From Cyanobacteria bacterium FACHB-502 (lineage in GTDB: Bacteria; Cyanobacteriota; Cyanobacteriia; Elainellales; Elainellaceae), in assembly GCA_014695325.1 (NCBI GenBank), contig JACJNZ010000095.1:1-32748 (forward strand): DNA of 32,748 nt, read 5' to 3'. Both the position numbers and the translations under genes were made by a program. The notes beneath the pieces were generated by a model. It ran no database searches. It was given only the letters and a program-made list of their open reading frames with translations, and had not been told where the DNA came from. The stretch's first letter is position 1. Each line of letters starts with the position of its first letter. Shown here in pieces: positions 5,136 through 21,068 of the stretch.

Positions 5136-5410
5136 GCAAGAAGGAGAAGGAACAGCAGACCCGTTTTGATGCTCTTTTTGGAGCAGCACGGCAGCCGCAA
5201 GAACCAGAAACAGAGACACAACCAACAATCGATAATGACAGCCCAGCGGAGCCGATCGCCAAAGGGAAGGACCCGAACTACCAGCGAACTACCGTCTACC
5301 TACCAAAGGCACTGCATCGCAAGCTCAAGACCGCTGCGATCGCCCAAGAACGCGAAATGTCCGACATTATTGAGAAGTTAATCGAGAAGTGGCTAGACTC
5401 AAATGTTTAG
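5132..5410 (+). CDS. RHH-type partition partner (ParB/ParG-like)
   Basis: 92 residues from a GTG at 5132 that overlaps the parA stop; AAGGAG lies eight bases upstream. The N-terminal half is polar and disordered (Glu/Gln/Pro-rich), with FDALFGAARQP near its start. The C-terminal half is a ribbon-helix-helix domain: strand RTTVYLPKALHRK, then helices around LKTAAIAQEREMSDIIEKLIEKW. This disordered tail plus RHH layout is that of ParG-like centromere-binding proteins. It probably binds the ATGTTT repeats; the downstream copy begins inside its own last codons. Confidence 0.8.
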   Translation: MSKKEKEQQTRFDALFGAARQPQEPETETQPTIDNDSPAEPIAKGKDPNYQRTTVYLPKALHRKLKTAAIAQEREMSDIIEKLIEKWLDSNV

Positions 5411-8078: not shown

Positions 8079-11000
8079 CTATGCCGCTATCAGTTCTTCT
8101 GGTGGCGATGTAGCGTGTTCTGCCCGTCTCGATCGTTCCAGAGATAGTCGATTACGAATCGCTGGGATAATGTCAGCCCAGAAAATCTGCTGAAACAGCT
8201 TGTTACCGCTACATTCCATATCGAGCCATCCATTCATGTAGACAACTTTCGATTTGCTGTAGCGTCTTCTGCCGTCCTTGTGATAACCGTTTGTGTGCAG
8301 TTCCTCTGTTGCCACCCTGACCGCTTTGCCGCAGCCCTGATAGCCCATAAACCGCATACACTGACGCACGATCGCCCAAAAGCTGAACAGATCTTCGACC
8401 TGTGGGAAGAACTGCCGCAGTTGATCCGCTTTCTGGAATTCCGCATACAGTTCTTGCACCTTCTCACATCCCGCGTGGAAATGCGTTCTATCTGCCACGG
8501 CATCATCGGTTGTGCTGCTGCATTGGGCGAGCTGTCCCAAGTTGAGCGATCGGAATAACCGGATATTGCGGAACGCTCGCAGCTTGGCGCTCTTGGCGCA
8601 AGTGAACTTGTCGCGCAGCAGCGCCAGAATTGCCCCGTCATCCTGTTCATTTGGCTCTGTTGCCATGACCCAAAACTTGATTCGATCGAGCCGCGACGAC
8701 TTGAAGATCCGCACCAAGTTAATTAGCTGCTCCTGGTCTGTCGCCTCATCGTTTGCCAGCGCAATCAAGTCATTGATCACCTCTGGGTATTTGTCGTGCA
8801 ATTGCGCCAGCCGCACATCCCAGACCTCGCTATTAAAGACAGGAGCTTTCTGGGCTTTCAGCAGATCTAATCCCCGCCCCAGGTTGCCATTGATGAGCTG
8901 CCTTGCATCTTCCTGCTTAACTGCTTCGATCGCGTCCCGCCATTCCTGCACTGGTGCGTCTTTGATCTCCAGCGTTTCAACCCGTTCAAAGAAATGCTCC
9001 AGCAGCATTTGCAGGTACTCGCTGTTAAATGAGTGGGCAATTTCATCGACTGCGCTCTGCCACAGTCCCCAGCCATGCGTCCGATCGCTATGTTGGATTC
9101 CGCCGCCTACAAAAGCATCCTTGAGCCGATCGCCCCAGGCTTTCACTCGATCGCCGTCTAGCGCCCGAATTGAAATAGGCGAGTCCTGAACAAAACGCGG
9201 ACACGAGACATACCATTCCTGGCACTGCCGCGCCCGCCCCATCTTTTGCAACATTTGCAGCGGTGGCAGCACACCGCTGCAGAGTAACAACCCTTTATCG
9301 AAGTGTGTTTGAACGTCAAGTCCGCTCTGAGCTGTTGGGCTGAAGGCGATCGAGCTGATGCCACTCGCCTGCAAATAGCCGTCAGGGTCGGGCATGAACA
9401 AAGCATTTTCTTCTGGCGTTTCGCTGGAGCAGACGTGAACATCCATTCCATGTCGCTTCATCCGAGCCACAACCGCTTTTAATGCGGTTAGGCTGTCTGA
9501 TGCCACGGCGATCGACTTCACTCCCTCTGCCGCCCATTGGTCGATGAGTGCGAAGGCGATCCCATCATGCCGCAGGCTAACCATGCCTTTTTTGTTGAGT
9601 TGCTCCAACCAGAACACTGGCTTAGGGGATTGCTGAAATTTCTGGTCCAGAATCAGCCGTTGCCCCTTGCGATATCGGCTGAGAATTCGAGCGTCAGCAT
9701 CACTCAGGAAGGCATCGACGGCGATCAGTCGCCAGCACTCAGACAGCAGCCGTTCAAATTCTGGCATGACGGCAGACTTGCTCAGGATTTCCGATCGCAT
9801 CCCGGCAAACTCGTCTAGAACGACGATCGTATCCGCCCAGCAGACCTCGCCCACGGCATAGTCTTTGAGCGAATCAGGGCAGAGGACGTATAGCCCTGGC
9901 TCACCCCGACGCAGCTTGTCCCGGTTCTCGCTGTTGTCGTCCTGAACGTGCCGAATTTCAGGGAATCCTAGCCTTGCCGCTCGTGCTGCTGTCTGCCGTC
10001 CCAGTCCATTTCGAGGAACAATCAGGAGAATCTGTTTGCTCAGATACTCCCGCCGCGCCAGCAACGATCGCAAAGTTGCCTCTGTTTTGCCAGATCCCAG
10101 CCAGCCGCGCAACAGGACGGTGGGAACGTGCAGGCTGAACTGCTTACAGAACCCCTCGTAATATTCGATCGATCGCCCATCAGTCGTAGTCAGCAGGAAA
10201 TCTCGTTTCAGCATTTCCCAGTACCGCATCTGAAAGGTAATCCGCCGTTTCTGAATCAGCCGCAGGCGTTCTTGCTGCTCACTGTTTGCCGGTTGCTCTG
10301 CCAGTTGCCCAAATCCGCCTGATGGCTTCTTAGGCTCATGCTGTTGGGCGATCGCCTCAAATTCTTCGATCGTCAGAAGTTGGGCATTGTTAAAGGTTTC
10401 TGCGTCGATCTCATCGGCATCACCGGCGGTCTTCTCGACTTGCCCCCACCAGCGCACCCGGAACTCATAGCCCAAACGGACCACCAGATTATGAGTTTGT
10501 CGGTATTGCTCCAGGACGTGAGCGTTTTTGACAGAGCCAGCATCAACATTCAGAACCACAACATTTGAGCCAGTCGCCTGACTTGCGGCTTCCAGATAGG
10601 AAGCTAATTGCTGCGAGCTGGATGGGAAGTTGCCGCCAGATGCACCCAGGCAGAGAACTCCAAACTTCTGAGCAATGACGTGTGGCTTTAGGAATCCCTC
10701 AGCCAGGTTGATTTCATCCCGGATGGCTGTTTCCTGCACAGGCAGGTAATAGCCGATCGGAATTTCACCGGACGGCAGTTCAATCCCGTTGCCGCCGATG
10801 CTGCTGCTGCTAATCCAGAAATAGCGGTTGCCACCTGACGAAACTTTATCAGCCCTGATCTGTGCCCCTAAAATCTGTCCCAGTTGATTCGGAACACCGA
10901 TCGCTAAACCAGAGCCGAATTTTCGCAGCCGACCATTGGCATCAGCTCCGGGCAACTCAGATGTTACTCCCGGAATGTCTGAGTTGCCTTGCCACGTCCA

Positions 11001-11414
11001 CAGAAGCGACTGGGAATAAGCCGCCTCAATTTGCTCCGTCAGCAGCCCCCGATCTGCGAGCTTACGCCGATGCTCCAGACTCAGCCCTGAATGTCGCGCA
11101 ACCGCTTTATACTGCCGATTGCGATCGGGAATTGAGAGCAAGGCTTTTGCCTGTTCCTGGCGCTGCTGTTTCTCCGGACGCTGATTCTTCTGCTGTTGCT
11201 TTTCAGCTTCCTCAGTCCGCACCCACATCCCAAAGCCCCACCGGTCTATGCGGGTGAGAACGTAGCCGATCGGATTTGCGTCCTCGCTGCGACAGTGGAT
11301 GACTTCCGAGCTTATGCCGCCGTTCAGATAGGTAATCTTTCGGCAATCACGCCGCGCACCCTCGCAGATCGGGCACTCCCGCTTAAGCCGAACAGCTTTA
11401 GAGAGACTAGCCAT
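8079..11414 (-). CDS. CyRepA1-like plasmid replication protein (primase-helicase)
   Basis: About 1111 residues. A zinc-finger-like N-terminus (CPIC, then CRK and HC within residues 14-41) is followed by a TOPRIM-like primase region (INLAEGFLKPHV and VVVLNVDAGSV, about residues 235-295). A helicase core follows, with Walker A GWLGSGKT near 437-444 and Walker B IVVLDEF about 95 residues later. A conserved region (ARQCQEWYVSCPRF) follows at around 760. Zinc finger, primase and SF2-like helicase in one chain is the layout of the cyanobacterial CyRepA1 plasmid initiators. The ATG at 11414 has GGAGGGG nine bases upstream and overlaps the preceding stop (ATGGCTAG); an upstream TTG at 11438 is rejected. 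It is the last gene of an overlapping operon. The origin is probably nearby. Confidence 0.8.
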   Translation of the reverse strand: MASLSKAVRLKRECPICEGARRDCRKITYLNGGISSEVIHCRSEDANPIGYVLTRIDRWGFGMWVRTEEAEKQQQKNQRPEKQQRQEQAKALLSIPDRNRQYKAVARHSGLSLEHRRKLADRGLLTEQIEAAYSQSLLWTWQGNSDIPGVTSELPGADANGRLRKFGSGLAIGVPNQLGQILGAQIRADKVSSGGNRYFWISSSSIGGNGIELPSGEIPIGYYLPVQETAIRDEINLAEGFLKPHVIAQKFGVLCLGASGGNFPSSSQQLASYLEAASQATGSNVVVLNVDAGSVKNAHVLEQYRQTHNLVVRLGYEFRVRWWGQVEKTAGDADEIDAETFNNAQLLTIEEFEAIAQQHEPKKPSGGFGQLAEQPANSEQQERLRLIQKRRITFQMRYWEMLKRDFLLTTTDGRSIEYYEGFCKQFSLHVPTVLLRGWLGSGKTEATLRSLLARREYLSKQILLIVPRNGLGRQTAARAARLGFPEIRHVQDDNSENRDKLRRGEPGLYVLCPDSLKDYAVGEVCWADTIVVLDEFAGMRSEILSKSAVMPEFERLLSECWRLIAVDAFLSDADARILSRYRKGQRLILDQKFQQSPKPVFWLEQLNKKGMVSLRHDGIAFALIDQWAAEGVKSIAVASDSLTALKAVVARMKRHGMDVHVCSSETPEENALFMPDPDGYLQASGISSIAFSPTAQSGLDVQTHFDKGLLLCSGVLPPLQMLQKMGRARQCQEWYVSCPRFVQDSPISIRALDGDRVKAWGDRLKDAFVGGGIQHSDRTHGWGLWQSAVDEIAHSFNSEYLQMLLEHFFERVETLEIKDAPVQEWRDAIEAVKQEDARQLINGNLGRGLDLLKAQKAPVFNSEVWDVRLAQLHDKYPEVINDLIALANDEATDQEQLINLVRIFKSSRLDRIKFWVMATEPNEQDDGAILALLRDKFTCAKSAKLRAFRNIRLFRSLNLGQLAQCSSTTDDAVADRTHFHAGCEKVQELYAEFQKADQLRQFFPQVEDLFSFWAIVRQCMRFMGYQGCGKAVRVATEELHTNGYHKDGRRRYSKSKVVYMNGWLDMECSGNKLFQQIFWADIIPAIRNRLSLERSRRAEHATSPPEELIAA

Positions 11415-11601
11415 TGTGCTGCCCCTCCAACGTTTCAAGCAGCCAGAGAGAGAAAAGTCTTCTCATCTCAGCCCGTGTCAGCCCGTGAAATGCAGCCGTC
11501 CGGCTAAGCCAGTACTGCCGCTCCAGTTCGGTCTTGAGTTCGCCAATTGCCTTGAATGCAGAGAGTAGGCGATCGAAATCTGCTTTTAGGTGAGTGCTCA
11601 T
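11407..11601 (-). CDS. Small protein coupled to the replication gene
   Basis: 64 residues, helical (DRLLSAFKAIGELKTELERQYW ... LTRAEMRRLFSLWLLETLEG in outline). Its stop overlaps the start of the replication gene and its own start overlaps the preceding gene by ATGA, so it is in a tightly coupled operon. GGTGG lies just upstream of the ATG. Family not recognised. The position directly before the initiator suggests a role in controlling or assisting replication. Confidence 0.6.
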   Translation of the reverse strand: MSTHLKADFDRLLSAFKAIGELKTELERQYWLSRTAAFHGLTRAEMRRLFSLWLLETLEGQHNG

Positions 11602-11795
11602 TTTGCCACCGCCCGCACCGATTGCAAGCCTTCGCGATCGCAGTAGTCCAGCCAGTTATCGACCTGCATTGACGCCGCGCTGCTGTACGGCTCGCTTAAA
11701 AGGCGATCGAAATGGGAGGGAAGGAATACTACAATTTGTTTTCTGTTTTTGTTACGATTGGGGCAGTATTTTTCTGAAAGGGGGTCGCGGCTCAT
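11598..11795 (-). CDS. Small protein in the replication operon
   Basis: 65 residues with no recognised family. The start is embedded in an A5G6 tract (AAAAAGGGGGG then ACGC and ATG) that also serves as its ribosome site, and it overlaps the previous gene by ATGA. The end overlaps the next gene in the same way. The sequence is mixed, with a basic N-terminal third (NRNKNRKQIVVFLP) and a helical C-terminus (VDNWLDYCDREGLQSVRAVA). Confidence 0.6.
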   Translation of the reverse strand: MSRDPLSEKYCPNRNKNRKQIVVFLPSHFDRLLSEPYSSAASMQVDNWLDYCDREGLQSVRAVAK

Positions 11796-12106
11796 GCGTC
11801 CCCCCTTTTTGTTTGGAGAAGGTTCATCTTGCCTGCTTGGTTAGCTTTCACAAACAGGGTGCCCCGCCGTGAAGATGCGCCAGGTTGAGGTGTAAATCTT
11901 GAATTAGCAGAACCGCCAAATCGTTCTGTCTCTAAAGCTTGCCAAGCGATGAACTTCTGCGTCATCTGACGCTCGCGGCGATCGAGATGTTTGCCCTCAG
12001 CCTGCTGTGCTAGCAGTTTCTGGGCTTTTGCGCGCCAGCGCGATCTGTAACTTGATGGTTCGGGGGATACCGGAGTTGCGGAAATTTTTGCTACATTTGT
12101 TTTCAT
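11792..12106 (-). CDS. Small basic protein, first gene of the replication operon
   Basis: 104 residues, very basic, with a helical core (RSRWRAKAQKLLAQQAEGKH and RRERQMTQKFIAWQALE) suggesting nucleic acid binding. No family recognised. Its stop overlaps the next start (ATGA). GGGGG lies about 12 bases before the ATG. The last codons contain A5G6, a tract prone to slippage that could fuse it to a downstream frame; this is only a possibility. The leader upstream holds the paired hairpins at 12176-12260. Confidence 0.6.
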   Translation of the reverse strand: MKTNVAKISATPVSPEPSSYRSRWRAKAQKLLAQQAEGKHLDRRERQMTQKFIAWQALETERFGGSANSRFTPQPGASSRRGTLFVKANQAGKMNLLQTKRGDA

Positions 12107-12175
12107 GATCGAGATCTGCCCCCAGTTACCTGGGAAGCAGGATTGATTTGCGAAAGACCGTTCTGTTTTTTGAAG

Positions 12176-12221
12176 GCGATAGTTCAGCCCAGATGTGGTA
12201 GTCGGGGAGTTGAACTATCGC
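12176..12221. promoter_or_regulatory. Hairpin 1 with conserved loop, replication operon leader
   Basis: GCGATAGTTCA (12176-12186) and TGAACTATCGC (12211-12221) form a perfect 11-bp stem. The 24-base loop contains AGATGTGGTAGTCGGGGAGT (12191-12210), which recurs exactly in hairpin 2 although the stems have different sequences. Confidence 0.7.
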
Positions 12222-12223
12222 TT

Positions 12224-12260
12224 TTGATTTACTAGATGTGGTAGTCGGGGAGTAAATCAA
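12224..12260. promoter_or_regulatory. Hairpin 2 with the same loop and a different stem
   Basis: TTGATTTACT (12224-12233) and AGTAAATCAA (12251-12260) form a perfect 10-bp stem around AGATGTGGTAGTCGGGG. The shared 20-mer occupies 12234-12253, 43 bases from the first copy; its last three bases lie in the stem here. Confidence 0.7.
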
Positions 12261-12337
12261 CTATTAATTTGATATCACGTCAACCACTGGAATTTACTTT
12301 TTTGTGGCAAACGCCTGAAAACCTTGCTGGGCGAGGG

Positions 12338-13048
12338 TTACAAAATCCGTTTTTTTTGCCTTCCTCCTGAATGAACGTAAACATTGTCTCCATCCGCCTC
12401 GTGCCGCTTGAAGCTGGGGCTTTGAAGCATCTTAATTCTTCCGTCCCAAGCCTTCAGAAACGGCTTCCAGAACTGAAGCTCAAATTCTCTGTCATTCTCA
12501 GCCAGCCCGATCGCTACGTTGAGCAGTAGCGAAAAATGACGGAACTTAAACTGATTCCCTGGAACGTTGGGATCGAAAGGGTTTTCTCCGTTTCGCACTT
12601 GCCTTAGTTGCAATTGCAGAAGCCTAATGAACTTATCCTTGTGATTCCCCTTCTTGCTCCAAAAATCTGTATCCGAAAACTTCTGGTTAACGACTTCCTG
12701 CCGGAATTCCTTAATGATGCAGAGAAACCACTCTGCCCAATCTTTGTAGGATAGTTCAACTTCAGGAACTAGCATTCTGCGAGCATGGCACACAATGCAC
12801 AGCAAATCGAGGCGAGATAAATACTCAACTTCAGGTTCCAAAAGCTTTATCAATTTTCGCTTTGCCGGTACAACGTGATGCTTGTTCCGCTTTTTTAGCC
12901 AGCAATGCAGAGCAATGTTTCTCTCAGTCAAAGTTAGAGTAATTGCCAATTGCTCCCCTTTTGATGGAAGGCGAGGGACTAGCAACCTGCTGTTCATCAA
13001 TTCCAAAACTTCTGACTCGTCTACATCTGATTCACTTATTTTTCTCAT
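12338..13048 (-). CDS. Hypothetical protein of 236 residues
   Basis: No family recognised. GAGG lies about nine bases before the ATG, 12 bases after the stop of the preceding gene, so it belongs to the Uma2 operon. The protein is charged and mostly helical (WAEWFLCIIKEFRQEVV, FIRLLQLQLRQVR), with two Cys in LLCIVCHARRM and a basic C-terminus (GRQKKRIL) encoded by an A8 run. No signal peptide or membrane helix. It is the last gene before the hairpin-bearing leader of the replication operon. Confidence 0.6.
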   Translation of the reverse strand: MRKISESDVDESEVLELMNSRLLVPRLPSKGEQLAITLTLTERNIALHCWLKKRNKHHVVPAKRKLIKLLEPEVEYLSRLDLLCIVCHARRMLVPEVELSYKDWAEWFLCIIKEFRQEVVNQKFSDTDFWSKKGNHKDKFIRLLQLQLRQVRNGENPFDPNVPGNQFKFRHFSLLLNVAIGLAENDREFELQFWKPFLKAWDGRIKMLQSPSFKRHEADGDNVYVHSGGRQKKRIL

Positions 13049-15834: not shown

Positions 15835-16667
15835 CTGAGCCAATCAGAAATCAAACCTTTACCGCGATCGCTCTCCAGCAGCGTGGCGGTCCAGTTTCCC
15901 GGTTAAACTTCGGCGCAATCTCTCGCCAGATTCAGCGCGTCAGCATGAAGACCTGGTGCATTGCTGGAGCTGGTGCGATTGGCGTGGGATGTGTCGGAAT
16001 GCTAATGGTGCAAGTCTTCAGGCAGCAGGAAACATCGATCGCCCCAGCCGTAACGACTCCCGGCATTCTGGCGCAGGCTTTCAACCCTCAAACTCTGGCA
16101 GGCATCACGCCAAACACGCCACCGGATGAGGCAGTAGGCAAGCTGTATCAACTCATCCCCAATTATGAGCGAATTCTCTCTGATACGGCATCGACCCACA
16201 TGGACGAAATGCTGAAATATGAAGCAATCCGGTTGAATAATGAGGCACTGAAAGAGGTTCAAGAGTCGCGCTATCAACCAAATGATCCAGCCTTAGATAT
16301 CGACCTGAACAAGTGCCCTGATCAGGTTTCACAGCAGAAATGCGTCCTGCTCAGATTTGCGGGCGATGGCTTGAAGATGGTTCAAGAGGGCACGATCGCC
16401 CGTGATGCTCAAACGGTCACGCTGGGCTACACCCGGTACAGAGCAGCATTGCTTGCACTCTATCCTAGCGAGCCAGTACCTCCTGATAGCTCTATGGTTC
16501 TTCAAGGGCTGCTGAACTATCGCCTGATGGCTTACAGCATCATTCAGCGTTTGCCATCTGCTGACCCGTTCGCAACCAGGCTTGACCCGAAGCTGACGCA
16601 GCAGGACGGAGCCAGCGCGATCGAATCAGCTAACCCTGTCCCTCTCCCTGGATCAGGAGGTCAGTAA
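15831..16667 (+). CDS. Single-pass membrane protein with extracytoplasmic domain
   Basis: 278 residues. An N-terminal cytoplasmic segment of about 38 residues, one membrane helix (WCIAGAGAIGVGCVGMLMVQVF, about 43-64), then an extracytoplasmic domain of about 210 residues, mostly helical, with a Cys pair (CPDQVSQQKC) that could form a disulfide, and a Pro/Ser tail. No family recognised. It overlaps the gene before it by four bases and the ATPase gene after it by one (TAATG), so it is probably made with the ATPase and may be a bitopic partner of it, as VirB10-like or TraB-type scaffolds are in transfer systems. That role is inference. Confidence 0.6.
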   Translation: MTEPIRNQTFTAIALQQRGGPVSRLNFGAISRQIQRVSMKTWCIAGAGAIGVGCVGMLMVQVFRQQETSIAPAVTTPGILAQAFNPQTLAGITPNTPPDEAVGKLYQLIPNYERILSDTASTHMDEMLKYEAIRLNNEALKEVQESRYQPNDPALDIDLNKCPDQVSQQKCVLLRFAGDGLKMVQEGTIARDAQTVTLGYTRYRAALLALYPSEPVPPDSSMVLQGLLNYRLMAYSIIQRLPSADPFATRLDPKLTQQDGASAIESANPVPLPGSGGQ

Positions 16668-18139
16668 TGTATCTCAGCAAAGGGCAGAAGCGCACCATTC
16701 AAGCGGGTTTGATGGGATTGTCAGCAGTGCTGCTGATTCAAGGGGGTTGGAAGGCGATCGCCAACCCTCAAACCTACAGTGCTAGCGACCTGCAAGCCAT
16801 CCATGAACAGGGCATTGAGGGGAAAGCAGTTCGTCTTGCAGGGCAGAAAACTGCTGCTGTGCTGGGTATTGTGCAGATGACTTTTGCTGCTGGATGTCTT
16901 GCCCTTGCTGGGATTGTGGCTGAATCAACTCCTTCCCGTATCCTGCCTAAGCAGCTTGATCCAGCGGACACGCCGCCGGAGCAAATCATCGATCGCAATC
17001 AGACCTTAACCGCGCTACGGCATCGCCTGGTTGAACTGCTGCAAGACCATCCGTGGTTGATGCAGACGATTGCCGCCGAATCGCTGATTATCATTGCGCC
17101 TGCTGGTGCTGGCAAAAGCTCGATCGCCTCTGTGATTGCTTTCCTGCGATCAATCCTGCGGAACCATTCAGTTCATCTGCTAGACCCTCACGCCGCCATC
17201 AATGTTGAGCGGGGAATTTGGTTGATTGGCGATATTTACCAGTCAGAGCAGGAGATTCTAGGGGCAGGCGAAGAAATCACTGCACGGCATAGCCGATCGA
17301 ATCCCTGTACTGCTGTGCTGGATGAATTTGGCTCGCTGGGTGCAGACAAAAACTCCAGAACGGCAAAGTTTGCCTCTGATATCGTGGGCAGTGCGATTCG
17401 AGATAATCGCAAGTTTCACAATCACTTTGTTTTTCTGTGCCACGGTCGATCGAAAGGGCAGATGGGGGGTGAAGCAATGCCCTCCGGTTATCTGGATAGC
17501 TGGACTCACAAAAGCATGGTGCTGGAACTTGAATCCGATTACTCGATGTGGGGTGAAGCTGAGTTTGCCGGACGCGCCCGATTTAAGCCAGCGGGGAAGG
17601 CATTCGATGACGATTCAGCTTACACCTCGATCCAAATTCCCGACTTCCTCAACCCGATCGCCATCCGTCGAGAGTTTCACCAGTTGTTTGCTGTGCTGGG
17701 ACTGACGCAAGCCCAGCATCAGGAGCAGAAGCCGCAGTACAACCCCACTGTGATGAAGCTGATTGATGAGGCGTTGTCTGAGGAGCATCTGAGCGGAGTT
17801 AAGACTTTACTCGATCGGCTTTATCAAGCGTCGGCAGAGGAGACACAATGCACATCGATCGACCCAGCACAGGCAGTTTCTAGCCTGTCTAATAGTGCGG
17901 TTCAGATGTTTCGCTATTACTTCGACAAAGGACAGAAATACATCGATTCGGATGGATGGCTCGAAGTAAAAATTCTTCGGGAAAATTGGGCGAAACATAA
18001 GGGGATTTTGGCGGAGCAGTTCAAGGAAATTCTGGCAGAAACTATATCAACCGAACTTGCACTGATGCAGGAAAATCGCTGGAAGCCAAGAATCGCCAAA
18101 ACTGACCTTCCTCCCGAAGATTCGACAGGCGTGGAGTAA
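16667..18139 (+). CDS. VirD4/FtsK-like membrane P-loop ATPase
   Basis: 490 residues. Two N-terminal membrane helices (about 12-30 and 63-85), then a P-loop domain with Walker A APAGAGKSS (145-153, K150) and Walker B TAVLDEF (215-221). Two membrane helices followed by a RecA-like motor is the layout of coupling proteins (VirD4/TraG/TrwB) and of FtsK/TraB DNA translocases. Residues about 411-475 (MFRYYFDKGQKYI..GWLEVKILRENWAKHKG) look like a winged helix and could bind DNA, as FtsK-gamma does. Directly after its stop lies a cluster of ACGCCT repeats. No relaxase, VirB4 or pilin gene accompanies it. Probably a DNA-pumping ATPase; other AAA-type roles are possible. Confidence 0.65.
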   Translation: MYLSKGQKRTIQAGLMGLSAVLLIQGGWKAIANPQTYSASDLQAIHEQGIEGKAVRLAGQKTAAVLGIVQMTFAAGCLALAGIVAESTPSRILPKQLDPADTPPEQIIDRNQTLTALRHRLVELLQDHPWLMQTIAAESLIIIAPAGAGKSSIASVIAFLRSILRNHSVHLLDPHAAINVERGIWLIGDIYQSEQEILGAGEEITARHSRSNPCTAVLDEFGSLGADKNSRTAKFASDIVGSAIRDNRKFHNHFVFLCHGRSKGQMGGEAMPSGYLDSWTHKSMVLELESDYSMWGEAEFAGRARFKPAGKAFDDDSAYTSIQIPDFLNPIAIRREFHQLFAVLGLTQAQHQEQKPQYNPTVMKLIDEALSEEHLSGVKTLLDRLYQASAEETQCTSIDPAQAVSSLSNSAVQMFRYYFDKGQKYIDSDGWLEVKILRENWAKHKGILAEQFKEILAETISTELALMQENRWKPRIAKTDLPPEDSTGVE

Positions 18140-18786: not shown

Positions 18787-19212
18787 ATGTCACGCCTCAT
18801 CGATCGCCTTGACGTAGCTTTGAACCGATGGGGCAGACGCGCTCTCCAGATTGGCTGTATTGCTGCTGTCTGGGGAGTTGCCTACCTTGACCTGAAGGAG
18901 CCAGGCTATCTCAAGCTTTATGACCCGATCCCTTGGAGCCAGATCGATCGCCTCATTGGGAACTGGGGGAGCTGCCCAAGTGCAAACGCGCTGAAAGTCC
19001 CTGGCATTCCTTCGATCGTTCAGTTCTTGCAGATGCCCTCGACGTTAGAAGATTGGCGCAGACGACTCGGCAAGCCAATCTGCCACACCAGCGAGAACGG
19101 CAAAGAGATTTACGTTTGGAAGCTGCAACCCCTCTTCAATCAGCAGCTATTCCTCCGCATTGAGTTTGTGAATAACGTCGCAGTTGGTTACGACTTCCTC
19201 AAACAGAAATGA
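18787..19212 (+). CDS. Membrane-anchored protein of 141 residues
   Basis: One N-terminal membrane helix (LQIGCIAAVWGVAYLDL, about 20-36) followed by an extracytoplasmic domain with two Cys (SCPSAN and ICHTSE) that may pair, and a beta-rich end (EIYVWKLQPLFNQQLFLRIE). The end overlaps the start of the muramidase-protease gene by ATGA, implying coupled synthesis. Family not recognised. A partner of the muramidase fusion is the simplest guess from context. Confidence 0.6.
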   Translation: MSRLIDRLDVALNRWGRRALQIGCIAAVWGVAYLDLKEPGYLKLYDPIPWSQIDRLIGNWGSCPSANALKVPGIPSIVQFLQMPSTLEDWRRRLGKPICHTSENGKEIYVWKLQPLFNQQLFLRIEFVNNVAVGYDFLKQK

Positions 19213-21068
19213 TGCTCGCACCATCCACGCCACCACCAATCGAGGCACTATCGCCCGATCTTCAATTCAAGCTCTGGGAACGGGAACGCAACCGCCTCAA
19301 GCGAAGCTGGATCTTCGCACTGCTGCTGTGCAGTCCTGCGCTCGGGTTCATCGCTGTTAAGCCAGTGAATGACACGGTTTCAGCTATCTACCAGGGAGCG
19401 CAGTTCTTGCACTGGCTCACTGGATTGGTTGCGCCCTCAGACGCAAAAGACCCCAATGCAGTCGATCGCCCTGAAGTGATGGCGTTTCTCGATACGATCG
19501 CCTATGCCGAGGGCACAGAGGGCGATGCAGGCTACAAAACGATCTTTACCCACGCTAAGTTTTCAGGCTTTGATGACCATCCCAGAGAGGTGAAGTGCAG
19601 CGGCAATCTATGCAGCGATGCCAGCGGTCGCTATCAGTTCCTTTCAACAACTTGGGACAGCCAAGTGAAAGCATTGGGATTGAAAGACTTTTCACCCAAA
19701 TCGCAGGACTTAGCCGCGATTCAGCTTTTGAAGGCGAATGGAGCCTACGACAAAATTCTTGCAGGCGATATCGAAGGAGCAATTCAATCAGTTCGATCGG
19801 TTTGGGCAAGCTTTCCCGGCGCAGGCTATGACCAGCCAGAAAAGCCAATGAGCAAGCTGCTGGAGGTCTATCGAGACAGGCTAAGCAATCGGCAGTCGGA
19901 AGCGTCAACAGCTACCAGCAGCACGGCAGCAGGAAAAGCCACCCCATTCAAAGGAATTCAGGTCACATCGGCTAAAGATGCCAGCGGTGAACCGGGATTG
20001 GATTATGTGGTTTCTGGCGGTCAGCGCGGGGCTGAATTTGGGGCACTGGTTGCCGGAAGTGTGGTTGAAGTTGTCGATACGGAAGACTGGGAAACTCACC
20101 TTGAAAAAGGCAGCGGACGCAGAGGTTACGGGAATCTGGTAGTGGTTCGAGCGAAAGACGAGGTATCAGGCGAAGAGATTGATATGCTCTATGCCCACAT
20201 GGACACTGTTGCAGTCCAGAAGGGGCAGCAGGTTTCGATCGGTACGGTGATCGGAACGCAGGGACGGAAAGGCAGTACAACCGCGCCTCACGTTTCTGTG
20301 GACTTTTTTGCACCCGGAACACGGACTGCAAACGCCGCTTCTCTGGCAATGCGCGATCGAATTGCAGGCATCCTACAAACCAATCCTGATTCACTGAATC
20401 AACACCTTCAACCAGAGCAGCCCCCACTCCCGCAGATCTCCCCAGTCACCCAGATTGCCTCTCTAGCAAAGCTGGAGCTGCCACAAGATCTAAAACTGCC
20501 ATCGCTGCCCATACCCAACACCGACCCCGATCGCTTCACCGTCGAAGTGTGGATTCAGACCGATGCAGGAGCAGCCCCAGCAAGCGGAATCATCATCAGA
20601 CAGGATGGCTTGGTGCTGACGAATCACCACGTCATCGCCAATGGGCTGCTGCACGTCAAAACCAAAGACGGGAAGCAATTTACTGGAAAGACGATCGCCA
20701 GTGACAGCAGTTTAGACCTAGCACTCGTTCAACTGGATGGAGTCGCTAACCTGCCTACAGCACCACTGGCGCAATCAGCCAATGTTCAAGCAGGGGATAT
20801 GGTGAAGGCGATCGGGCATCCGATGGGCGCACAGTGGAAGCACACCACAGCCCAGGTAATTGCAACTGATAGCCTATGCGGGGTGAAGGCACTCGATCGA
20901 AAGTGCATCAGAACCCCGTCAGCCTTCCTCTATCCCGGCAACAGTGGCGGACCATTGCTGAACGATCGGGGTGAGGTCATTGGCATCAATCGAGCAATTC
21001 AGGAAAGCACGGGTGAAGGGGTGAGCATTCCAATCGAAGTCTTTCACCAGCAGTTCAGGATGCCATGA
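19209..21068 (+). CDS. GH104 muramidase - degenerate M23 - HtrA-like protease fusion, membrane anchored
   Basis: 619 residues. A membrane helix at about 33-50 is followed by three domains. Residues about 88-225 match lambda endolysin R (GH104 transglycosylase): AYAEGT holds the catalytic Glu (E101), GRYQFLSTTWD and GLKDFSPKSQD are nearly lambda-identical, and WASFPGAGY follows. Residues about 262-370 resemble peptidase M23: YAHM and APHVSVDF survive, but the first zinc ligand pair and the second His of HxH are missing, so it is probably a binding domain. Residues about 445-619 are a trypsin-like HtrA domain with H474 (TNHHV), D503 (SLDLALVQL) and S579 (GNSGGP). It probably cuts murein and proteins outside the membrane for the system encoded upstream; it is the last gene of the operon. 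Confidence 0.85.
   Translation: MMLAPSTPPPIEALSPDLQFKLWERERNRLKRSWIFALLLCSPALGFIAVKPVNDTVSAIYQGAQFLHWLTGLVAPSDAKDPNAVDRPEVMAFLDTIAYAEGTEGDAGYKTIFTHAKFSGFDDHPREVKCSGNLCSDASGRYQFLSTTWDSQVKALGLKDFSPKSQDLAAIQLLKANGAYDKILAGDIEGAIQSVRSVWASFPGAGYDQPEKPMSKLLEVYRDRLSNRQSEASTATSSTAAGKATPFKGIQVTSAKDASGEPGLDYVVSGGQRGAEFGALVAGSVVEVVDTEDWETHLEKGSGRRGYGNLVVVRAKDEVSGEEIDMLYAHMDTVAVQKGQQVSIGTVIGTQGRKGSTTAPHVSVDFFAPGTRTANAASLAMRDRIAGILQTNPDSLNQHLQPEQPPLPQISPVTQIASLAKLELPQDLKLPSLPIPNTDPDRFTVEVWIQTDAGAAPASGIIIRQDGLVLTNHHVIANGLLHVKTKDGKQFTGKTIASDSSLDLALVQLDGVANLPTAPLAQSANVQAGDMVKAIGHPMGAQWKHTTAQVIATDSLCGVKALDRKCIRTPSAFLYPGNSGGPLLNDRGEVIGINRAIQESTGEGVSIPIEVFHQQFRMP

Follow-up and report, generated by a model that had tools for sequence, protein, structure and literature searches.

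Tandem hairpins with matched loops ahead of a CyRepA1-like rep gene: a probable antisense-RNA copy-control locus in cyanobacterial plasmids

We analyzed a 32,748-nt stretch of DNA from Cyanobacteria bacterium FACHB-502 (contig JACJNZ010000095.1), referred to here as the window. The ends of this one contig overlap by 113 bp, so the window represents an entire circular plasmid, 32,635 bp in length; its GC skew revealed no clear origin. On the minus strand lie o236 (12338..13048), encoding a protein without assigned function, o104 (11792..12106), encoding a small basic protein with a pI of 11.4, and, downstream, a rep gene (8079..11438) whose CyRepA1-like product scored 91 bits against NF042913, under the 200-bit cutoff. 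A pair of hairpins occupies the 231-nt gap between o236 and o104. The initial annotation had located this pair in the leader of the replication operon, which is accurate, the leader being that of o104, the gene before rep. The structure model of o104 is a two-helix (helical hairpin) fold of low confidence (pLDDT 64), and its comparison with the PDB gave no match at E ≤ 0.001, Rop being absent among the 17 matches listed. Over the o104 stop codon, the plus strand carries a U-tailed hairpin at 11777-11815 (AAAGGGGG...CCCCCTTTTTG) with a fold z of only -1.7, and a promoter-like pair lies near it at 11707-11735 on the same strand; the two could possibly mark another short antisense RNA, located between o104 and rep. 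Farther away, 16667-18139 looks by eye like a transfer-type ATPase, with no Pfam or NCBIfam match, and the protein encoded by 19209-21068 is large, with portions resembling HtrA and an M23 peptidase.

The hairpins are built around a 20-mer, AGATGTGGTAGTCGGGGAGT, that occurs exactly at 12191..12210 and 12234..12253 on the plus strand, with starts 43 nt apart, as had been annotated; the repeat did not arise in any of 100 dinucleotide-shuffled versions of the window, and allowing as many as 3 mismatches revealed no third copy across the 6.6-Mb assembly. The first copy belongs to HP-B (12176..12221; HP2 in comparisons among plasmids), in which the stem GCGATAGTTCA/TGAACTATCGC forms 11 perfect pairs (12176-12186 with 12211-12221) around a 24-nt loop holding the common sequence; extended to 14 positions, the stem is 93% complementary. 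The second copy belongs to HP-A (12224..12260; HP1), in which the stem TTGATTTACT/AGTAAATCAA forms 10 perfect pairs (12224-12233 with 12251-12260) around a 17-nt loop. Both pair counts were therefore as first described, although three of the HP-A pairs (ACT/AGT) come from the final 3 bases of the repeated 20-mer, leaving only 7 pairs between private flanks. The description of the flanks as unrelated between copies holds for the stems but not fully for the right-hand flanks, since TGAACTAT and AAATCAACTAT have AACTAT in common. On either strand, the hairpin region folds far better than shuffled sequence, and the DNA fold of 12172-12262 gave z = -5.5 and -6.3 for the two strands. A detector of identical loops on different stems returned this site, whereas 5 block-shuffled versions of 390 kb gave none.

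The initial annotation had named a lack of further instances as the outcome that would count against selection on structure, and further instances were found on four more contigs. The cassette, in the order o236-like gene, two tandem hairpins, o104-like small basic gene and CyRepA1-type Rep, is present in five plasmids or plasmid-like contigs from four genomes: the window, C47 and C27 (both from genome G035), G576 and G524. We infer from their Rep genes that the four further contigs are plasmids; C47 and C27 are related and come from the same genome, which makes the five plasmids less than fully independent. A search with o104 through 36 genomes of the order yielded relatives on two contigs, C47 and C27, of a single further genome, G035. 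A three-sequence o104 profile run against 388 genomes of the class reached E ≤ 0.01 in six of them, with the cassette in G000, G035 and G576, the last being the one new member, and a four-sequence profile run against 63 genomes of another order yielded the fifth member, G524 (E = 2e-4). Searches of 42 and of 63 genomes returned only G576 itself and only G524, respectively; the order of G430 consists of a single genome. No hairpin of at least 8 bp was present in 480 nt at G014, G620, G591 or the weak match C34 of the own genome. Two tandem hairpins precede the o104-like gene at all four further loci, and in 5/5 plasmids a relative of o104 adjoins the hairpins, lying as a small ORF between the leader and rep, with a CyRepA1 match downstream (NF042913 scores of 91, 180, 334, 160 and 131 bits for the window, C47, C27, G576 and G524, only C27 exceeding the 200-bit cutoff). 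A helicase gene separates the o104-like gene from Rep in G576 and G524; in addition, DUF3854 was detected in the C47 Rep and a helicase domain in that of the window. A gene similar in size to o236 occupies the same position in 5/5 plasmids, these proteins being 14-29% identical to that of G576 (24% for the window's o236). Searches of the plasmid collection gave no matches for the window's o236, the o236-like protein of C27 or the o104-like proteins of L070 and G524, and the hairpin region gave only short, chance-level matches to plasmid and phage records. The claim of selection on structure with a common loop is thus supported, and strengthened by the four further contigs. Several details of the G035 contigs were noted by eye: C47 has genes resembling the window's 16667-18139 and 19209-21068, and the C27 leader (L069:1797-1880, minus strand) has an AAGGAG ribosome-site-like motif and a 23-codon ORF (MKDPPLQIKKRLDTSSHPGSNRF) crossing HP2. 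Moreover, TTAGCCGACAGCGAATCAACTAA is kept between both contigs (L070:1380-1420 and L069:1765-1800), where the antisense stem contains several G-U pairs.

Read on the mRNA strand, the loop is CCCCGACTACCACATCT in both hairpins of the window, CCGGATTCCGACCCCCT and CCGGATCCGACCCCCT in C47, ACCTGCTCTCACAACCCGG and ACCAGCTCTCACCCCGG in C27, CCAGGGCTACCAACTCTAACTCC and CCAGGGCTACCAACTCC in G576, and TCAGATTTTCTCACCCCGT and TCAGATCTCACCCCGT in G524. Matching of HP1 and HP2 loops within their own plasmids ranked first of 120 possible pairings, and each own-plasmid loop pair exceeded all 2000 shuffles, whereas stem likeness within plasmids ranked only 95th of 120. Loops are therefore alike inside a plasmid and different between plasmids, over unrelated stems, and the fixed loop first proposed is fixed inside one plasmid but changes from plasmid to plasmid. 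Likeness is not always identity, as indels of 1-6 nt separate the two loop copies in 4/5 plasmids, and the distance at which HP-A is positioned also differs from plasmid to plasmid. The predicted energy between the antisense HP2 loop and the HP1 loop was -26.4 to -35.7 kcal/mol for own pairs and -8.8 to -23.1 kcal/mol for cross pairs (rank 1/120), values that follow from loop likeness and add no independent evidence. The loops of C27 and G524 have CTCACCCC in common, and their cross energy of -23.1 kcal/mol compares with own energies of -26.4 and -27.5, suggesting that specificity between those two would be weaker.

HP2, the hairpin nearer rep, is followed on the antisense strand by a T-rich tail in 5/5 plasmids. 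In the window this tail is TTTTGATTT (12222..12230, plus strand), and its complement, AAATCAAAA(A)GCGA, is kept in 4/5 plasmids, where it opens HP2 and places TCGC(T)TTTTGATTT on the opposite strand directly after the stem; the tail reads TTTT(T)GATTT in these four and TTTTGG after the stem in G524. Together, hairpin and tail look like an intrinsic terminator on the strand opposite rep. In the window, the predicted antisense RNA would span 12117..12230 on the plus strand, with an approximate start and an end at the terminator-like HP-B. Folding of the interval between the o104 start and HP2 points to the same strand, with z of -5.3, -4.1, -4.0, -2.0 and -4.2 in antisense (window, C47, C27, G576 and G524) vs. 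-3.8, -2.3, -1.4, -0.5 and -4.0 in sense, hence lower on the antisense strand in 5/5 cases, if barely so in G524. The antisense folds contain 9, 9, 9, 6 and 6 G-U pairs against 2, 1, 0, 1 and 1 in the sense folds (same order), and since a G-U pair becomes A-C when the opposite strand is read, the folded molecule is more likely to be the antisense RNA. For HP2 alone, z was again lower on the antisense strand in 5/5 plasmids. For HP1, z was lower on the sense strand in only 3/5 (the opposite in G576 and G524), and raw folding energy was lower on the antisense strand for all ten hairpins. A sense-strand role of HP1 is accordingly weakly supported and would draw chiefly on the position of this hairpin beyond the predicted antisense RNA. 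In C27, HP1 contains one pair that is G-U in the sense strand only.

Promoter-like pairs on the antisense strand were less decisive. The best of them precedes the end of the stretch examined by 119, 129, 131, 101 and 132 nt in the window, C47, C27, G576 and G524, with scores reached by 96, 10, 57, 13 and 12% of shuffles, respectively; the window's pair overlaps the o104 start codon and its 7/12 matches are no better than chance. The first four positions fall within 30 nt of one another, as in ~0.5% of shuffles, a figure to be read with the facts that the span was chosen after seeing the positions and that C47 and C27 are related. Promoter position thus lends weak support to the antisense RNA. 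G524, which was read after the model was set, agrees in its loops, T-tail and promoter position but not in HP1 strand preference.

Searches for the core sequence and for the layout elsewhere gave mostly negative results. Core sites with up to 3 mismatches occurred in 45/386 genomes of the phylum and 6/36 of the order, the own genome being counted in both, but a second copy was present at none of 30 phylum loci (L038-L067) and 6 order loci (L199-L204), where the longest stem was 8 bp with G-U allowed; an exact 18-mer of the core matched no IMG/VR contig. A tandem-pattern search returned 35 genome and 10 viral stretches, mostly tandem repeats with like stems by eye, and none was comparable. Clustered GGTAGTCGGGG and ACTACCC stretches in an inverted arrangement were noted by eye in viral contigs L108-L113 and L116. 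Among 75 stretches around Rep-like matches, the detector reported only the window and L194, a silence that says little because this detector misses all four relatives. L194 (10180-10270, on a G503 contig) contains two adjacent long perfect palindromes with arms of 22 and 24 bp, the same TGCTACGCA center and different stems, with a third copy at 5170; these form a palindrome family. A terminator-aware detector applied to 903 kb, a set outside which G524 lies, recovered the window and G576 but neither C27 nor C47. The tail pattern occurred at 22 places in 17/388 genomes, three of them known and two within a tandem repeat (G507); at the others, the longest repeated run downstream was at most 8 nt, although C27 itself scores 8, so a few may qualify. 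The different tail of G524 is beyond the reach of this pattern. Since the early exact-match detectors miss most of the relatives, our count may understate how many plasmids have this layout.

The hairpins, their matched loops and the T-rich tail are directly observed and conserved, and we consider them probably to be the working end of an antisense-RNA copy-control locus in a CyRepA1-type plasmid. Among the roles offered in the initial annotation, control of copy number by RNA loop contacts has the best support, albeit with altered parts, in that HP-B is terminator-like on the opposite strand and the partner HP-A lies outside that RNA. An antisense RNA of ~100-130 nt would start near the o104 start codon on the plus strand, run away from rep and end at HP-B, its predicted intrinsic terminator, exposing a G-rich terminator loop. 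The minus-strand mRNA would start upstream of HP-A, so that HP-A is displayed first. By sequence, the HP-A loop is complementary to the antisense terminator loop even though HP-A lies beyond the end of the antisense RNA, and it may function as a second antisense target on the rep-mRNA strand. If the RNA is transcribed and pairs in the cell, a loop-loop contact at HP-A, together with complete pairing across HP-B and the start of o104, would reduce translation of o104 or the function of the leader, which in turn would lower rep expression or priming and thereby affect copy number. The loop pair would then act as a plasmid-specific incompatibility tag, and loops that are alike within and different between plasmids are what would be expected if they must match each other and nothing outside the plasmid. 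The antisense RNA would pair with HP-B in any case, so that HP-A might not be needed; the ordinary promoter scores, the unduplicated loop of pSYSA and the Fischerella plasmid described below also speak against this reading. More tentatively, and with somewhat less confidence than doubt, we suggest that the terminator-loop "address" is held twice, the second time outside the antisense RNA in the sense leader, that the two drift in concert and provide both copy control and compatibility, and that the adjoining basic two-helix protein may assist pairing as Rop does for ColE1. Another suggestion, that the CTCCCC displayed by each loop masks or mimics ribosome sites, was assessed in four plasmids as pairing of each loop with the o104 start region of its own plasmid, which ranked 2/24. 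Loop pairing elsewhere in the operon gave no run beyond the shuffles' maximum in four plasmids.

Antisense RNAs that recognize a leader through their loops are familiar from other plasmids. In R1, CopA contacts the leader CopT in this manner, and in both R1 and ColE1 the loop sequence sets incompatibility. The loops of CopA/CopT, like those of ColE1 RNAI/RNAII, are complementary because they come from the same DNA, whereas in the present locus the loop recurs in another hairpin that the predicted antisense RNA does not include. In ColE1, RNAI exerts antisense control of copy number through loop-loop contacts with the RNAII leader (PMC9978351). No gathering-score match to Rfam, including ColE1 RNAI (RF00106), was obtained for the window, L069, L070, L210 or the pSYSA stretch. 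Another parallel is pSYSA, where asRNA1 is located at the small gene ssr7036 before cyRepA1, and a second copy of ssr7036 raises the plasmid's copy number even when it carries a stop codon (PMC9978351). As in pSYSA, a small basic ORF directly precedes a CyRepA1 rep and has an opposite-strand RNA, here a predicted one, and asRNA1 occupies the matching place and ends in a hairpin with a 20-nt loop; asRNA1, however, covers the ssr7036 coding sequence from its stop codon, whereas the RNA predicted here would cover the start and leader (PMC9978351). Furthermore, the asRNA1 loop has no second copy in its leader, and BLASTP gave no alignment of the window's o104 with Ssr7036 at E ≤ 100. Because our RNA is a prediction and the small proteins differ, we regard the locus as working like the pSYSA type and claim no membership. 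In pSYSX, antisense RNAs start ~25 nt inside slr6031/slr6090 and, similar to the predicted RNA, lie over the translation start of a replication-operon gene, but the covered gene is rep itself rather than a small gene before it, and no duplicated loop is mentioned in the passages on these RNAs (PMC10899382). A duplicated antisense terminator loop was likewise not found in the open-access literature. The plasmid AP018303 of Fischerella sp. NIES-4106 offers a partial comparison, with an o236-like gene (25.9% identity, E = 1e-3) followed by a gap of ~380 nt in which no 8-mer is repeated and no duplicated loop occurs. Its small gene is unlike o104 (hhalign probability 0.1) and its large downstream gene has no NCBIfam match. 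By eye, the antisense strand of AP018303 has U-tailed hairpins, and the small gene (L251:6076-6402) resembles the window's ORF at ~11407-11601 (minus strand) rather than o104.

Of the explanations that compete with antisense copy control, binding of the loops, on the mRNA or on an antisense RNA, by a plasmid RNA-binding protein such as o104, which is encoded just downstream and would bind both hairpins and regulate its own synthesis, is one we regard as unlikely, though worth weighing. A basic protein with a two-helix model and a relative beside the hairpins in 5/5 plasmids would suit this role, protein and loop could change together, and the Fischerella plasmid, which lacks both an o104-like gene and a repeated loop, suggests that paired loops may go with o104, as protein binding would also predict. 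Protein binding nevertheless leaves the T-rich tail after HP-B and the antisense G-U pairs unexplained, and the o104 model has a pLDDT of only 64, no PDB match at E ≤ 0.001 and no Rop among the 17 matches listed.

Two further readings are less probable still. Iterons are direct repeats near rep, repeated within a plasmid and differing between plasmids, and the repeats here could similarly be DNA sites for Rep, as iterons or in single-stranded initiation, with hairpins extruded or single-stranded at the origin. The 43-bp spacing is about four helical turns, good DNA hairpin folds are obtained for either strand, and a DUF3854 in the C47 Rep and a helicase domain in that of the window would be in keeping with such a role. 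In contrast to iterons, however, these repeats sit inside hairpin loops on unrelated stems, there are just two copies, and these differ by indels of 1-6 nt in 4/5 plasmids; repeat reading by Rep requires neither different perfect stems nor a T-rich tail. We consider this reading improbable, and we give equally little credence to the proposal that HP-B terminates an ordinary antisense or read-through transcript while HP-A is a duplication relic kept alike by gene conversion. Slight drift in the loop pairs of C27, C47, G576 and G524 would be consistent with a relic, but no likeness is seen between the stems of the two hairpins and the distance of HP-A varies between plasmids, such that repeated origin or retention of a copied segment comprising only the loop would be required. 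Both the iteron and the relic readings fit less of the evidence than antisense copy control.

Relatives of the Rep occur in 68 of the 388 class genomes sampled (E ≤ 1e-20), and copy control of CyRepA1 plasmids was found worked out only for pSYSA in the open-access literature. If antisense copy control is the correct reading, the present locus would add a second layout, one whose repeated loop is specific to the plasmid. Incompatibility between cyanobacterial plasmids would then be readable in the sequence and open to testing with loop swaps, and the layout could supply orthogonal vectors. It would also mean that selection holds two loops alike while their surroundings change.
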